Origin: Deltaproteobacteria bacterium
GTDB lineage: Bacteria > Desulfobacterota > Deferrimicrobia > Deferrimicrobiales > Deferrimicrobiaceae
Assembly (NCBI GenBank): GCA_016219515.1
Contig: JACRMU010000075.1
Span: 1 to 33,719 of the forward strand
DNA: 33,719 bases
Direction: 5' to 3'
This document shows, piece by piece, positions 7,784 through 25,656 of the stretch (position 1 is the stretch's first letter; every line of letters starts with the position of its first letter). The position numbers and the translations under genes are program-made. The notes under the pieces were generated by a model, which saw only the letters and a list, made by a program, of their open reading frames with translations, was not told where the DNA came from and ran no database searches.

Positions 7784-8835
7784 TCCTCGTCGCCTACGGG
7801 ACCCGCCCGGAAATCATCAAGCTGTTCCCCGTGATCCGCGAGCTCAGGAAGCGGCGGATCGCCCATGAGACCCTTTTCACGGGGCAGCAGACGGACCTCT
7901 ATGAGGACGTGAAGGACCTGGTGCCCCCGCCGGACGTAAGCTTCGCCGGTTCCTTTTCCGGGAGGGCGAAGCACAACACCTTGGGAGAAAGCTTCCTCAA
8001 GATCTGCCGGGCCTCCGAGCGGTTGTTCGCCCGGCGCCGCTTCGATGCGGTCGTCGTCCAGGGAGACACGACGACCGCCTGGGCTCTCGCACAGATGGCG
8101 TTCTACAACGGGGTGAAGATCGCGCACGTCGAGGCGGGGCTGCGGACGTTCGACCCGGAGAATCCCTACCCGGAAGAGCTGAACCGCACGCTGATCGGCC
8201 ACGCCGCCGAATGGAACTTCGCCCCCACGAAACGGGCCTGCGAAAACCTGGTCGGATGCGGCGCCAGGAACGTCCGCAACGTCGGCAACACGATCGTGGA
8301 TGCCGTGGACCTCCTGAGGCGCCGGCGGAAGATCCCGGTGGCCCGGTCGAACGAGGTCCCGGTGACCCTGCACCGCAGGGAAAACCACGCGATCATGGGG
8401 CGGCTTTTCGACGAGCTGGACCGGGTCGCCGCCGGGAATCCCGACCTCGAGCTGATCCTTCCGATCCACCCGAACCCGAATGTGCGGAAGCATCGTCCGC
8501 GGCTGAAGGCGAAAAACCTCCGCGTCATCCCGCCGGTCGGGTATCTCGAAATGCTCCGCATGCTGGCCAGGGCGAGGTTCGTGATCTCCGACAGCGGCGG
8601 GATCCAGGAGGAGTGCGCCTGCCTGAACAAGAAGATCCTTATCGTCAGGGAGACCACCGAGCGGCCGGAAGTGATCGAGATGGGGCTGGGGAAGCTGGTG
8701 GGGGGAAAGCTCCTTCCCCACATCGACTGGGCGAGGAATCCTTCGGGGAAAGCCCGGCAGCATCCGTTCGGGAACGGGCGCGCGGCGGAGCGCATCGTTC
8801 GGATCCTTTCCCGTTCCCTGATGAAAGCGAAATGA
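7780..8835 (+). CDS. wecB: UDP-N-acetylglucosamine 2-epimerase family
   Basis: MILVAYGTRPEIIKLFPVIREL, TGQQTDLYED, VQGDTTTAWALAQMAFYNGVKIAHVEAGLRTFDPENPYPEELNR, ISDSGGIQEE. Confidence 0.92.
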   Translation: MILVAYGTRPEIIKLFPVIRELRKRRIAHETLFTGQQTDLYEDVKDLVPPPDVSFAGSFSGRAKHNTLGESFLKICRASERLFARRRFDAVVVQGDTTTAWALAQMAFYNGVKIAHVEAGLRTFDPENPYPEELNRTLIGHAAEWNFAPTKRACENLVGCGARNVRNVGNTIVDAVDLLRRRRKIPVARSNEVPVTLHRRENHAIMGRLFDELDRVAAGNPDLELILPIHPNPNVRKHRPRLKAKNLRVIPPVGYLEMLRMLARARFVISDSGGIQEECACLNKKILIVRETTERPEVIEMGLGKLVGGKLLPHIDWARNPSGKARQHPFGNGRAAERIVRILSRSLMKAK

Positions 8836-18628: not shown

Positions 18629-19235
18629 ATGGGGCGGGACATTCAGAAGTCATTGAGAACCGGCTCGGCCGGCCGTCGTTTCCTGACGGGCATCCTTCTC
18701 GCCGTGTTTCTCCTTCCGGTTCGGCAGGCGTTTCCCGCGGCTCCTCCCGCCCCGAACCCCCATACCCACTTCCGGCAGGCCCCCCAGTGTCCCCGGTGCC
18801 ATCTCTATGACGGTCCGAAGATGGAGGCGGATCGCTTTGCCACCGCGTCCATCGATTTCTGCCTGGAGTGCCACCGGGTCGAGGAGCGCGGCCGCACCCA
18901 CCCCCTCAAGGTGCACCCGGCCGGCAAGTTCCGGCAGATGAAGGTCCCGCCGGAATACCGCCTGGGCGACGGCGAGCACATCGTCTGCCTTACATGCCAC
19001 TCGGCGCATGGCCCGTTCCTGTCGCCGGTCAGGGCGTTTGCGGGGCAGGCGCCGGAGATTTCCCAGGCCGAGCCGAACGCCGCGCCCTGGTACCGGGCCG
19101 ACTTCCTCCGGCGCTCGGATCACGCGGGGGCAGGGTACGAAGCGCGCTGCGAGGCGGACCTACTTCCTCCGGCGCTCGGATCCCGCGGGGGAAGGGTACG
19201 AAGCGCTCTGCGAGGGGTGCCACAAGGTGCCATGA
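18629..19235 (+). pseudogene. CxxCH cytochrome c, frameshifted by an internal 61-bp tandem duplication (cassette 1)
   Basis: CPRCH, CLECH, CLTCH in the first frame; fourth motif CEGCHKVP* lies in the +1 frame after the duplication; paralogous to the intact 22388-22909 gene. Confidence 0.75.
19101..19222 (+). repeat. 61-bp imperfect tandem duplication (units 19101-19161 and 19162-19222)
   Basis: acttcctccggcgctcggatc[a/c]cgcggggg[c/a]agggtacgaagcgc/t... present twice at a spacing of 61 nt. Confidence 0.9.
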
Positions 19236-19786
19236 GTCCTGGCTCTCCACGACATGTCCAACGGCGGACCATCTTCATCAACCCCCGTTTCCAGGGAGGG
19301 GCGGCGCTCTGTTTCGCCGCGGTGGTCCTCGTCGCGGCGGCGCTGTTCGTCTGGTTCTTTTATCGCCATGCCAAGGGAGCGCTCCGCGTGGCTTCCCTGC
19401 AGGGGCATTACCATTTTCTGTCTCCCTATGAAATCGTCGGCGGGTCCCTGGTGGAGCGCCTTGCCGCGCTGACCGCCGGCGGACTGGCGGCAAGCATTCT
19501 CGTCTTCCTGCTCCTTCTCCGGAGGATCCGCCAAGGGGTCGACCGCCTGATGGTCGCGTTCCGCCGGTCGGCGGAGGGAGACCTGTCGACGCCCACGCAG
19601 GCGCCGGGCCTGTTGGATCTTACGGATTTGGGGAGAAAGATCGATGCTTCCCGTTCCCGGACCCTTTCCCTGATCCGCGAAGCCCGGGATGAGGCGGAAT
19701 TTCTCCGGAAGGAGCCGCTTCCGGAGGAAGAGTTCGCCCGCCGTTGGAACGCCCTGAAGCGGACCCTTCACAGGATCGCCCCGTGA
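19232..19786 (+). CDS. Two-TM HAMP-like membrane protein A (cassette 1), no output domain
   Basis: RRTIFINPRFQGGAALCFAAVVLVAAALFVWFFY...TM2...RRIRQGVDRLMVAFRRSAEGDLSTPTQAPGLLDL; ATG overlaps the ancestral cytochrome stop (ATGA). Confidence 0.75.
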   Translation: MSPGSPRHVQRRTIFINPRFQGGAALCFAAVVLVAAALFVWFFYRHAKGALRVASLQGHYHFLSPYEIVGGSLVERLAALTAGGLAASILVFLLLLRRIRQGVDRLMVAFRRSAEGDLSTPTQAPGLLDLTDLGRKIDASRSRTLSLIREARDEAEFLRKEPLPEEEFARRWNALKRTLHRIAP

Positions 19787-20340
19787 GCGCCCGATCGTCC
19801 GGAGAGAGGACGAAAATGACGGCCCGAGGGTACATCGGACGGTTCGCGGCGCTGCTGCTCCTCGTTTTCTCCCTGGGAGGGGGTTCCCTGTTCCTCGCCT
19901 TCCACATCATTTTCACGCAGCCGCTTCCGGCCACGTATGCGGGGGTGTATTTCGCGCTGCGCAACCTGTCCGCGTTCCTGGTGCCCATGCTGGTCTTCTC
20001 CATGCTGGCCTATGTCCTGCTGGTGAGCGTGGCGGTCGCGGTCCTCTGCGGCTTCACGTTCCACAAGATCGCGGGGCCGCTCTATCGCATGGAGAGGGCG
20101 CTGGAGAACTACGAGTCCGGGGATTCCGTCCGGGCGGTGTTTCTCCGGGAGGGAGACCAGCTGGTCGCGCTCGCGGAGGCGTACAACGGCTTTGTGGCCC
20201 GCCTTCGGGATGACCGCCGGGGGTGCCTGGAGGCGATGGAGCATGCGGAGCGGCTCTGCCTCCTCGACGCCACCACCTGCCGCGGGGAAATGGGAGACGC
20301 CCTTTCCCGTCTGTCCACCCTGCTTTCCCGGTACCGTTGA
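19783..20340 (+). CDS. Two-TM HAMP-like membrane protein B (cassette 1), no output domain
   Basis: FAALLLLVFSLGGGSLFLAFHII...LVFSMLAYVLLVSVAVAVLCGFTFHKIAGPLYRMERALENYESGD; GTGA overlap with gene A. Confidence 0.75.
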   Translation: MSARSSGERTKMTARGYIGRFAALLLLVFSLGGGSLFLAFHIIFTQPLPATYAGVYFALRNLSAFLVPMLVFSMLAYVLLVSVAVAVLCGFTFHKIAGPLYRMERALENYESGDSVRAVFLREGDQLVALAEAYNGFVARLRDDRRGCLEAMEHAERLCLLDATTCRGEMGDALSRLSTLLSRYR

Positions 20341-22316
20341 TGGAAAACGGCTCCTTTTTCCAGCGCGCGAAACGGTTCCTGTTCGGCGCACCCCGGGACC
20401 TGTTCGATCCGAAGATCTTCCACAAGGTTTCCCTGGTCGCGTTTTTCGCGCTCGTGGGGCTGGGGGCGGACGGGATCTCCTCCTCCTGCTACGGCCCGGA
20501 GGAGGCGTTCCTCGCCCTCGGGAGCCACACGGTGCTGGCGATCTTCGTCGCCCTCGCCACGGTGGTCACGGTCTTCATCATCTCCGGAAGCTATGCGCAG
20601 ATCATCGAGGCGTTCCCTTCGGGGGGGGGCGGGTACATCGTCGCCTCCAAGCTCCTCGGGGAAAGGGCGGGCGTCGTATCCGGCTCGGCGCTGGTCATCG
20701 ACTACGTGCTGACCATCACCATCTCCATCGCATCGGGCGCGGACGCCCTGTTCAGCTTCCTCCCGCTGAACTGGCAGGCGCACAAGTTCGCCTTCATCGC
20801 CTTGATCCTCGTTCTTCTCATCTGGCTCAACCTGCGCGGCGTGAAGGAGTCCGTGGCGGCGCTGACCCCCATCTTCATGGCGTTCATGCTCAGCCACGTC
20901 CCGCTCGTGCTCTACGCCGTCCTGCGCCACGCGCCCGAGCTGCCCGCGGTGGGCGCCCGCGTGTCCATGGAATTCTCCACCACGGCGAAGCAGCTCGGCT
21001 GGGTGGGGTTGGGGGCTCTCCTCATGCGCGCCTACTCGATGGGCGCCGGGACGTACACCGGGATCGAGGCGGTCAGCAACTCCATGCCGACCCTCCGCGA
21101 GCCCCGCGTCCACACGGGGAAGAAGGCGATGCTCTACATGGCGCTTTCCCTCTCCTTCATCGCCGGGGGGATCATCCTCGGGTACGTGCTGAACGGGGTG
21201 ATGCCCACCCAGGGGAAAACGCTCAACGCCGTCCTGTTCGAGAACCTGATGGGAAGCATCTGGCCGGGGCACACGGGCGTCGTGATCGTCGCTTTCGTCC
21301 TCGCATCGGAGGCGGCGCTCCTGTTCGTCGCCGCGCAGACGGGGTTCATCGACGGCCCGCAGGTGCTCTCGAGCATGGCGGTCGACTCCTACGTCCCCCA
21401 CCGGTTCGCGCATCTCTCCGAGCGCCTGGTACGGAAGTACGGCGTCTACTTCATGAGCGTGATGGCGTTCGTGATGCTCTTCATCACGGGCGGGTCGGTC
21501 CGGTACCTCGTCGTCATGTACTCGATCAACGTCTTCCTCACGTTCAGTCTCTCCCAGTTCGGGATGTGCATCCACTGGTGGAAGGACCGCGAAAAGGAGA
21601 AGGCGTGGAGGATCAAGTTCGCCATGAACGGCGTCGGTTTCCTCCTGACCGCCTCGATCCTCTGTTTCACGGTATGGGTCAAGTTCCCGGAGGGAGGGTG
21701 GATCACCCTGCTCATCACGGGGACGTTCATCGGCATGTGCTTCCTGGTCCGCCGCCATTACCGGAAAGCGCAGCACGCCCTGCGGCGGCTCGACGAGCTG
21801 CTGCTTCAGCTTCCGCCGGTGACGGTATCCTCCGTGCAGGAGCCGATGCTGCGCCGCGTCGCCCCCACGGCGGCCATCATGGTGTCCGGGTACAACGGGC
21901 TCGGGATGCACGTCTTCTTCTCCGTCATCCGGTCGTTTCCGGGGACCTTCCGGAACTTCGTGTTCCTCTCCGCGGGCGTCGTCGACAGCACCATCTTCAA
22001 GGGCGCGGAGGAGGTGGTGAACCTGGGCACGGACCTGAAGAAGCAGCTCCAGAACTACGAAGAGTTCGTCAAGGGGCACGGGTATTACGCGGAAGCGCGC
22101 AGCGAGGTGGGAACGGACGTCATCGAGACCATCGGCCACCTGGCTGCGGGCGCCGCAAAGGATTTCCCCAACATCGTCTTCTTCTCGGGCCAATTGGTCT
22201 TCCAGGAGGAGAGCGTGGTAACCCGCCTGCTCCACAACCAGACCGCGTTCCTCGCCCAGAAAAAGCTGGTCTTCGCAGGGCTTCCGATGATCATCCTGCC
22301 CGTCCGGGCGCTTTGA
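20340..22316 (+). CDS. APC superfamily permease with C-terminal soluble domain
   Basis: VGLGADGISSSCYGPEEAFLALG, multiple TM segments, SYAQIIEAFPSGGGGYIVASKLLGERAGVVSGSALVIDYVLTI; ATG overlaps the preceding stop. Confidence 0.88.
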   Translation: MENGSFFQRAKRFLFGAPRDLFDPKIFHKVSLVAFFALVGLGADGISSSCYGPEEAFLALGSHTVLAIFVALATVVTVFIISGSYAQIIEAFPSGGGGYIVASKLLGERAGVVSGSALVIDYVLTITISIASGADALFSFLPLNWQAHKFAFIALILVLLIWLNLRGVKESVAALTPIFMAFMLSHVPLVLYAVLRHAPELPAVGARVSMEFSTTAKQLGWVGLGALLMRAYSMGAGTYTGIEAVSNSMPTLREPRVHTGKKAMLYMALSLSFIAGGIILGYVLNGVMPTQGKTLNAVLFENLMGSIWPGHTGVVIVAFVLASEAALLFVAAQTGFIDGPQVLSSMAVDSYVPHRFAHLSERLVRKYGVYFMSVMAFVMLFITGGSVRYLVVMYSINVFLTFSLSQFGMCIHWWKDREKEKAWRIKFAMNGVGFLLTASILCFTVWVKFPEGGWITLLITGTFIGMCFLVRRHYRKAQHALRRLDELLLQLPPVTVSSVQEPMLRRVAPTAAIMVSGYNGLGMHVFFSVIRSFPGTFRNFVFLSAGVVDSTIFKGAEEVVNLGTDLKKQLQNYEEFVKGHGYYAEARSEVGTDVIETIGHLAAGAAKDFPNIVFFSGQLVFQEESVVTRLLHNQTAFLAQKKLVFAGLPMIILPVRAL

Positions 22317-22387
22317 AGAATGCGGGTTTTCCGCCGGAATATGTGATATAACGTCGTGGAAATTGCGGGCCGTTGAGAGAGGAGCCG

Positions 22388-22909
22388 TTGACGGCGCAGG
22401 CATCCAGGCAGACCCTTTGGAAGTCTTTTTTCCTCGTTTCGGCGGTATTGCTTTCCTGCCTGGTCCTGGCAACGCAATTCGACCCGCGCGTCAACCCGCA
22501 TTCCCTCTTCGGGAAGCCCGACCAATGCCGGAAGTGCCACGTCTATTACCGCGGAAATATCGAGCCGGCCCGTTTTCTTCCGGAATGTTCCGAGTACTGC
22601 CTTGGATGCCACACGGACCAGTCGCTGGACCGCACCCATCCGATCCGGATGCGTCCGCGGGACAAGTACTGGAAAATGAAGATCCCCGCGGAATTTCGCC
22701 TCGACGACGACGGGAGACTCATGTGCCTGACCTGCCACAAGGCGCACGGACCGTTCCTCGCGACGGTGAAGGCACACCCGTCGCAGAAACCGGAGCCCAT
22801 GACTCCTCCCTCGGGAGTTTCCGACTATTACAGGACGTATTACCTGCGGACGTCGGATCCCGTGAAGGGGTTCGCCGCGTTGTGCGACGGGTGCCATAAG
22901 AAGCTATGA
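22388..22909 (+). CDS. Tetraheme CxxCH cytochrome c, N-terminal membrane anchor/signal (cassette 2)
   Basis: Four CxxCH: CRKCH, CLGCH, CLTCH, CDGCH; hydrophobic N-terminus; TTG start with upstream agaggag. Confidence 0.85.
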   Translation: MTAQASRQTLWKSFFLVSAVLLSCLVLATQFDPRVNPHSLFGKPDQCRKCHVYYRGNIEPARFLPECSEYCLGCHTDQSLDRTHPIRMRPRDKYWKMKIPAEFRLDDDGRLMCLTCHKAHGPFLATVKAHPSQKPEPMTPPSGVSDYYRTYYLRTSDPVKGFAALCDGCHKKL

Positions 22910-23454
22910 TCGCCTACCCGAGAAGTCGCCGGAAGATCGTCTTCATCAGCCCCAGAGTCCAGGGGGGTACGGCGCTGTTCTTTTCCGCGATCGTCGTCGC
23001 GGGGGCCGCACTGTTCTCGTGGCTGGTCTACGACCACATCCGGCTGGCTCTCTGGGACTCCACCTACCGGGGGCATTTCCTGATCCGGACGCCGTACCAA
23101 ATTGTGGACGATATCGTCATTTCCCATCTCGCCGCGCTGTTCGTTGGCGTCCTGGCGATGAGTTTCCTCGCATTTTTCCTGCTGATGCGCAGGATCCGGG
23201 CGGGGATCCGGAGGGTGGCCGAGGTGCTGGCGATGTCGGCGGAAGGGGATCTTTCCACGCCGACGAACGCTCCGGGGCTGAAGGAGATCCAATCCTTCGG
23301 GGAGCAGCTGGATGCCGCCCGTTCCCACACGCTCTCCGGGATACGGGAGATACGGGAAGACCTTGCGTTCCTGCGGTCCGGCTCGGCGTCCCCGGAGGAG
23401 TGCCGGTCCCGGTGGGAAGACCTGAAGGGGAAGATCGGGAGGGTGGCGCCGTGA
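22906..23454 (+). CDS. Two-TM HAMP-like membrane protein A (cassette 2)
   Basis: Paralogue of 19232-19786: RRKIVFISPRVQGGTALFFSAIVVAG...RRIRAGIRRVAEVLAMSAEGDLSTPTNAPGLKEI; ATGA overlap. Confidence 0.8.
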   Translation: MIAYPRSRRKIVFISPRVQGGTALFFSAIVVAGAALFSWLVYDHIRLALWDSTYRGHFLIRTPYQIVDDIVISHLAALFVGVLAMSFLAFFLLMRRIRAGIRRVAEVLAMSAEGDLSTPTNAPGLKEIQSFGEQLDAARSHTLSGIREIREDLAFLRSGSASPEECRSRWEDLKGKIGRVAP

Positions 23455-24008
23455 CGAACCGCCTTGCGGCCGCGAAAATGCCCGTCGCGGAGCGGGGGTT
23501 CCAGCTCCGGTTCCTCCTCCTGCTTTCGTGCATCTTCGCCTTCGGGGCGCTTCTCCTGTTCGCCTTCATGTTCCTCTTTTTCTCCCGGCCGCTCCAGGGG
23601 GATTACTCCAGCGTGTTTTTCGCCCTGCGCCATCTGACCGGGTTCGCCCTGCCGATGGTCTCTTTTTCCGCTCTGGTGTACGTCCTTCTCGTCTGCGGGG
23701 CCATGGCGGTGCTGTGCATCTATACGCTCCACAAGGTGGCGGGGCCGCTCTATCGGATGAGCCGGACGATCGAGAGCTACATCGCGGGGGAATTCCTGAG
23801 GCAGGTCGCATTCCGCGAGGGGGACCAGGCCGCGCTGCTGGCGACGTTGTTCAACCGGTTTCTCGAACGCCTGCGGGAAGACCGCCGGAAGCTGGAGGAA
23901 ATCGTGGAGCGGGCGGAGCAGGCCGGCCGGAAGGATCCGGCCGCATTGCAAGCAGCGATGGAAACGGCGGTCGATGAACTGGATCTCGCCCTTTCCCGGT
24001 ATCGCTGA
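23451..24008 (+). CDS. Two-TM HAMP-like membrane protein B (cassette 2)
   Basis: Paralogue of 19783-20340: YTLHKVAGPLYRMSRTIESYIAGEFLRQVAFREGDQAALLATLFNRFLERLREDRR; GTGA overlap. Confidence 0.8.
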   Translation: MTNRLAAAKMPVAERGFQLRFLLLLSCIFAFGALLLFAFMFLFFSRPLQGDYSSVFFALRHLTGFALPMVSFSALVYVLLVCGAMAVLCIYTLHKVAGPLYRMSRTIESYIAGEFLRQVAFREGDQAALLATLFNRFLERLREDRRKLEEIVERAEQAGRKDPAALQAAMETAVDELDLALSRYR

Positions 24009-24100: not shown

Positions 24101-24505
24101 ATGGCGTTCATTCGGAAAGCGGGATGGTTTATGGCGTTGGCCCTGGTGATGGCGGGGTGGATGGGCGTGCTCGGATCGTTCCGGGGGGTGGCGGTGGCGG
24201 GAGTGATCGCCTCCCACGGCACGGGGGCGGGCGAACTCCGGGCGGCGGAAATCGCCAAGGTCCAGGCGTTCCTCGAGCGTAAGATCGTCCTTCAGAAACT
24301 GACGGATTACGGAGTTTCCCCGGAAGAGGCGACGGCGAAGCTCAAGTCGATGAGCGACAGCGACCTGCACCGGCTCGCCTCGCTGACCGACAGGGTGGCG
24401 GCCGGCGCCGACGACGGCTTGGGCCTCCTCATCGGCCTGGCCATCCTGATCATCCTCATCATTGTCATCATGAAGCTCATGAACAAGGAAATCGTCGTCC
24501 GTTAA
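24101..24505 (+). CDS. PA2779-like small membrane protein, copy 1
   Basis: N-terminal hydrophobic segment, KVQAFLERKIVLQKLTDYGVSPEEATAKLKSMSDSDLHRLASL, C-terminal TM ending LMNKEIVVR; adjacent to a PA2778-like peptidase. Confidence 0.82.
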   Translation: MAFIRKAGWFMALALVMAGWMGVLGSFRGVAVAGVIASHGTGAGELRAAEIAKVQAFLERKIVLQKLTDYGVSPEEATAKLKSMSDSDLHRLASLTDRVAAGADDGLGLLIGLAILIILIIVIMKLMNKEIVVR

Positions 24506-24694: not shown

Positions 24695-25093
24695 ATGGAA
24701 TCGATGCGCGGGACCGCGTGGTTTTTCGCGTTGGCGTTGTCGATGGCTGTGTGGATGGGCCTTCTGGGCTCATTCCGGGGAGTGGCCGAGGCGGGCATGG
24801 TTGCCTCCCATGGCGCCGGCGACCCGGGGGCGGCGGACGCCGCCAAGGTACAGACGTTCCTGGAGCGCAAGGTCGTCCTGCAGAAGCTGGTGGATTTCGG
24901 GGTTTCCCCGGAAGAGGCGACGGCGAAGCTCAAGTCGATGAGTGACAGCGACCTGCACCGGCTCGCCTCGCTGGCCGACCGCGCGGCTGCGGGGGCGGAC
25001 AGCGGCGCGGATGTCGCGATCACCCTCGCCGTGCTGATCATCCTGATCCTGGTGATCCTGATGCTCATGAACAAGCGAGTCGTTGTCCGTTGA
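24695..25093 (+). CDS. PA2779-like small membrane protein, copy 2
   Basis: KVQTFLERKVVLQKLVDFGVSPEEATAKLKSMSDSDLHRLASLADRAAAGA and C-terminal TM ending LMNKRVVVR; gggagg RBS upstream of 24695. Confidence 0.82.
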   Translation: MESMRGTAWFFALALSMAVWMGLLGSFRGVAEAGMVASHGAGDPGAADAAKVQTFLERKVVLQKLVDFGVSPEEATAKLKSMSDSDLHRLASLADRAAAGADSGADVAITLAVLIILILVILMLMNKRVVVR

Positions 25094-25656
25094 AAAAAAG
25101 GTTCCGGTTTCCCGGCGCCGTCCTGCTCCTGGGCAGCGCCTTGTTTCTCCTGGGGGGATGCGCCGGCGCCGGTCCGGTCAACGGGCGGGAGGCGGGCGCC
25201 CGTTCGGCGGCCGTCATACCGGGCGTTCCCTTCCTCCCGCAGGAGGAGGACACCTGCGGCCCTTCCTCCCTCGCGATGAACCTCCGTTTCCTGGGGAGCG
25301 ACGCCCTGACGGCGGACCTCGTGAGGGAAACCCGGACGGAAGGGTTGAAAGGTACGCTGATCACCGACCTGGCGGCCGCGGCGAGGCGCCGGGGGTTTGC
25401 CGCGGAGGTCATCGATCTGGACCTTCTGCGCCTGCGGGAACGGATTTCCGCGGGAGCTCCCGTGATCCTTCTCGTCGATCTGGGCGCCTGGGTATGGAGC
25501 CGTCCCCACTACCTGTTGGCGTATGGCTGGACCTCGGAAGGGATCGTCGCGCATTCCGGGCGCGAGCAGGGGAAGGTCATCCCGTTTTCCGAGCTGGACG
25601 CGCAGTGGGCCAAAATGGGGCGGCTGACGCTCATCGTCCGCCGGGGGGACCGGTGA
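25090..25656 (+). CDS. PA2778-like C39-type cysteine peptidase lipoprotein
   Basis: Lipobox-like LFLLGGCAG; VPFLPQEEDTCGPSSLAMNLRFLG (Cys), RPHYLLAYGWTSEGIVAHSG (His/Asp region). Confidence 0.85.
   Translation: MKKRFRFPGAVLLLGSALFLLGGCAGAGPVNGREAGARSAAVIPGVPFLPQEEDTCGPSSLAMNLRFLGSDALTADLVRETRTEGLKGTLITDLAAAARRRGFAAEVIDLDLLRLRERISAGAPVILLVDLGAWVWSRPHYLLAYGWTSEGIVAHSGREQGKVIPFSELDAQWAKMGRLTLIVRRGDR

Follow-up and report, generated by a model that had tools for sequence, protein, structure and literature searches.

Tandem duplication is a familiar type of mutation. When it arises by slippage or recombination it commonly leaves short homology behind, which is not so when two sequences are joined end to end. 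When such a duplication makes a bacterial pseudogene by frameshift, the unit is not a multiple of three and a conserved C-terminus is moved to another frame, as is the case at the locus described here. Metagenome assemblies, in turn, contain local errors, suspected to be most prominent in IDBA-UD, which include overlapping flanks duplicated at scaffold joins and which result in incorrect gene sequences (Chen et al. 2020, PMC7111523). We propose, from the sequence evidence set out below, that the 61-nt tandem duplication in this locus is probably a local error of a draft (metagenome-type) assembly. The gene concerned is close to the small tetraheme c-type cytochromes that weakly resemble Cytochrom_c3_2 (PF14537): its homologues are alike in carrying four CxxCH motifs, and the window gene shares a hydrophobic N-terminus resembling a signal peptide as well as the weak PF14537 similarity. 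It differs from them in that its fourth motif is out of frame and in that its PF14537 score (20.3 bits) does not reach the gathering cut-off of 25. Besides, NCBIfam assigned no family to the window cytochrome or to the membrane gene that follows it (gene A).

The window is the whole stretch of 33,719 nucleotides of contig JACRMU010000075.1 that was analysed, and belongs to assembly GCA_016219515.1 (G000) of a Deltaproteobacteria bacterium of the Deferrimicrobiaceae. The features of the locus are the following:

18629..19153, + strand: c-type cytochrome frame through copy 1, supported by its translation, three in-frame CxxCH motifs, homologues and a weak PF14537 match
19094..19154, + strand: copy 1 of the 61-nt unit, holding all five departures from the family sequence
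19155..19215, + strand: copy 2 of the 61-nt unit, agreeing with the family sequence and outside the upstream frame
19216..19235, + strand: cytochrome tail (GCHKVP and stop); copy 2 supplies the rest of the fourth heme motif, and the stop overlaps the next ATG (ATGA)
19233..19786, + strand: membrane gene A, with two hydrophobic stretches and its own ATG where relatives start gene A
22391..23454, + strand: intact paralogous pair made up of a four-heme cytochrome, its stop overlapping in ATGA, and then a gene A homologue

Among the tandem arrays detected in the window with TRF and a repeat finder, a 61-nt unit in 2.0 copies with 92% identity scores highest (TRF score 209), a repeat far beyond what chance could explain. 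The two units lie head to tail and differ at 5 of 61 sites, namely unit positions 4, 7, 29, 38 and 53. The earlier note, made from the sequence alone, had described two copies 61 nt apart from position 19101 on, with three substitutions in the stretch that begins there; both observations hold, although the unit begins 7 nt before that position and its full length contains five substitutions. The junction between the units has no microhomology, the unit edges do not share any base, and no Ns are present at the junction in the contig. The frame arithmetic of the 61-nt shift given in that note is likewise right, as is its statement that the long frame loses the fourth heme motif. The open frame at 18629-19786 encodes 385 aa, which include DLLPPALGSRGGRVRSALRGVPQGAMSPGSP, and crosses both copies without a stop to continue into the membrane gene downstream, whereas the C-terminus RTYFLRRSDPAGEGYEALCEGCHKVP* is encoded in a different frame; the fourth heme motif CEGCH, followed by KVP and the stop, can be read only there.

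Homologues of the cytochrome and of gene A are present through most of the family, as observed in a search of 99 genomes around G000; most of the relatives that GTDB names are MAGs of uncultured Deltaproteobacteria. The tblastn queries for the cytochrome were read with one 61-nt unit at a time and serve for the comparison with relatives only. The window cytochrome is 63-64% identical to its homologues in the same genus, and the gene A part is 58-68% identical in the best relatives. The cytochrome comparison comprised 20 sequences, 19 from related genomes of other species and the paralogue at 22391, and every one of them has a single copy of the 61-nt region, four in-frame CxxCH motifs (against three in the window frame) and its own stop codon. 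A tandem repeat like that of the window was found in none of the 20. The comparison with close relatives that the earlier note had suggested as a check thus shows an intact four-heme gene throughout, while the duplication itself has no counterpart among them. In 18 of 20, the cytochrome stop and the membrane gene start share an ATGA, and the overlap is therefore the normal arrangement, as had been assumed.

The paralogous cytochrome lies about 3.2 kb downstream of the broken gene. A set of cytochrome, gene A and a small HAMP-like membrane gene apparently occurs twice in this cluster (window 18629-24008), with a 658-aa KUP-like (APC-type) transporter frame at 20340-22316 between the two cytochrome/A sets, and in the second set the cytochrome and its A homologue (A') are both intact. 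Further downstream, two similar small membrane proteins are encoded in tandem (24101-24505 and 24696-25094), each having a FLERKIVLQKLTDYGVSPEEATAKLKSMSDSDLHRLASL-like segment and, at the C-terminus, a hydrophobic stretch; we take them to resemble PA2779-type proteins.

The long frame could be read as the product of a real duplication that made a functional fusion, in which a three-heme cytochrome joined to its membrane partner is made and used and the normal pair persists as the adjacent paralogue. We regard this as very improbable. The stop-free frame of 385 aa does link the two proteins, and to that extent the fusion announced in the earlier note exists as an in-frame open frame; a translated, functional fusion is not borne out by the relatives, none of which has one, the cytochrome frame stopping before the membrane protein in 20 of 20 homologues. 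Stop-free frames are, moreover, common in the GC-rich DNA of this region, and the linker of the fusion is cytochrome sequence read out of frame. An exported cytochrome would also place the Arg-rich segment that precedes the first hydrophobic stretch of gene A in the periplasm, contrary to the positive-inside rule. Gene A keeps its own start codon, preceded by an AAGG element, so that no fusion is needed for its translation. The least probable of the readings considered, to the point of being nearly negligible, is a phase-variable tandem repeat that would turn the cytochrome on with one unit and off, or into a fusion, with two. A unit length that is not a multiple of three would suit such a switch, but a switching array is expected to homogenise its copies, which differ here at 5 of 61 sites, and no repeat occurs at the matching site in the 20 homologues.

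The distribution of the differences between the copies bears more directly on their origin. Copy 2 reads RTYFLRRSDPAGEGYEALCEGCHKVP, near the family sequence (the counterpart in the related genome G002 is RTYFLRRSDPAGEGLEALCEGCHKAP), and copy 1 reads RADFLRRSDHAGAGYEARCE. Relative to copy 2 and to the family, copy 1 carries the changes T to A, Y to D, P to H, E to A and L to R, all five non-synonymous in the cytochrome frame and all at sites conserved in the family; the probability that five random substitutions would all be non-synonymous is 0.23, which is weak by itself. Taking as conserved the positions that are the same in at least 90% of homologues, 23/23 are kept upstream of the unit and 3/6 in copy 1 (Fisher p = 0.0055). 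Third codon positions account for 0/5 of the copy differences, compared with 48-60% of the between-species differences in the cytochrome gene, and on this ground, though with small numbers, we do not favour the idea that copy 1 derives from an ordinary strain variant. The earlier note had argued that the mismatches speak against a simple assembly echo. This argument fails, since the differences are one-sided, non-synonymous and at conserved residues of an otherwise intact gene. As judged from these positions, the pattern of copy 1 looks like errors or variant bases in one joined end, and not like two copies ageing together; a duplication aged to 8% divergence should have let copy 2 and the rest of the gene drift too.

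G000 is a draft assembly of 154 contigs and 2.09 Mb (97.5% complete), and its internal N gaps of 1-91 bases indicate that it was scaffolded; no overlapping flanks were found at its remaining N gaps. We scanned about 1.44 Mb of it (about two thirds), part of it masked as N, including many contigs shorter than 3 kb, with TRF for frame-breaking arrays of exactly two copies that are at least 90% identical. One further such array was found in the scanned part, a 35-nt duplication with 2 mismatches on contig C2 (L033 2790-2859), which breaks a gene at its conserved start, its junction again being without microhomology. From the motif PELLAPAG...GADAVYVGA we take this gene to be peptidase-U32-like; it is present as a single uninterrupted copy in 11 relatives. 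In 0.25 Mb of relatives, TRF detected no frame-breaking arrays of period 25 or more. A second frame-breaking duplication in the same assembly increases the suspicion of assembly error. A duplication of another kind was observed in L084 (G000:C26) at 8687-8807, where a perfect 60-nt in-frame tandem duplication lies close to the C-terminus of a small protein whose N-terminal part is hydrophobic; it encodes TGDSDGFVKAEYGGVVYRIG twice, the copies being identical with a one-base overlap.

The main rival of an assembly error is a genuine and recent tandem duplication that frameshifted the gene, a loss-of-function event that removed the fourth heme and left a pseudogene-like read-through. Translation of the membrane gene would then still start at its own ATG, and the function may be supplied by the paralogous pair at 22391-23454. 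We hold this to be possible but rather unlikely. The contig carries the duplicated sequence without Ns, the copies are non-identical and an intact cytochrome-membrane paralogous pair is present, all of which would fit a real event. On the other hand, the damage is confined to copy 1, with the upstream conserved positions untouched and copy 2 unchanged at the five sites of difference, though both should then have been free to drift; the junction lacks microhomology, and G000 holds a similar second case. Relaxed constraint across the whole broken gene was likewise not observed, a sign that a very recent event would hide. The locus departs from the known pseudogene duplications in its junction without microhomology and in the restriction of divergence to one copy of an otherwise intact gene.

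In an assembly error of the kind we propose, two overlapping ends would have been placed end to end without being merged, so that the 61-nt overlap is present twice, and an end with several wrong or variant bases (copy 1) would have been set before the correct sequence (copy 2). The absence of any shared base at the unit edges and the exactly 2.0 copies are what end-to-end joining predicts. We infer this joining step from the observed repeat, the placement of its mismatches, the single-copy homologues and the second case. Some observations count against an artefact: the missing Ns at the junction, 5 mismatches in 61 being high for a consensus error, the lack of an N gap with overlapping flanks, and the two mismatches of the U32 duplication, which are more strain-variant-like than error-like. 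The duplication resembles the errors described by Chen et al. (2020, PMC7111523) in being short, in arising where flanks would overlap and in making a protein-coding gene incorrect; in their duplicated-flank case, however, Ns remain between the copies, whereas the present junction is free of Ns and the two units have five mismatches, and the match to the published gap error is therefore one by analogy.

Taken at face value, the contig would yield a database entry for a three-heme fusion cytochrome of 385 aa. In draft genomes of the metagenome type, tandem duplications that break a frame need read support, and assembly error is to be considered even where the copies carry mismatches. The genome of the living organism most probably holds a normal four-heme cytochrome gene whose stop, as in the relatives, shares bases with the start of the membrane gene. 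Overall, the arrangement of a four-heme cytochrome, an ATGA overlap and a small membrane protein is consistent across these relatives.
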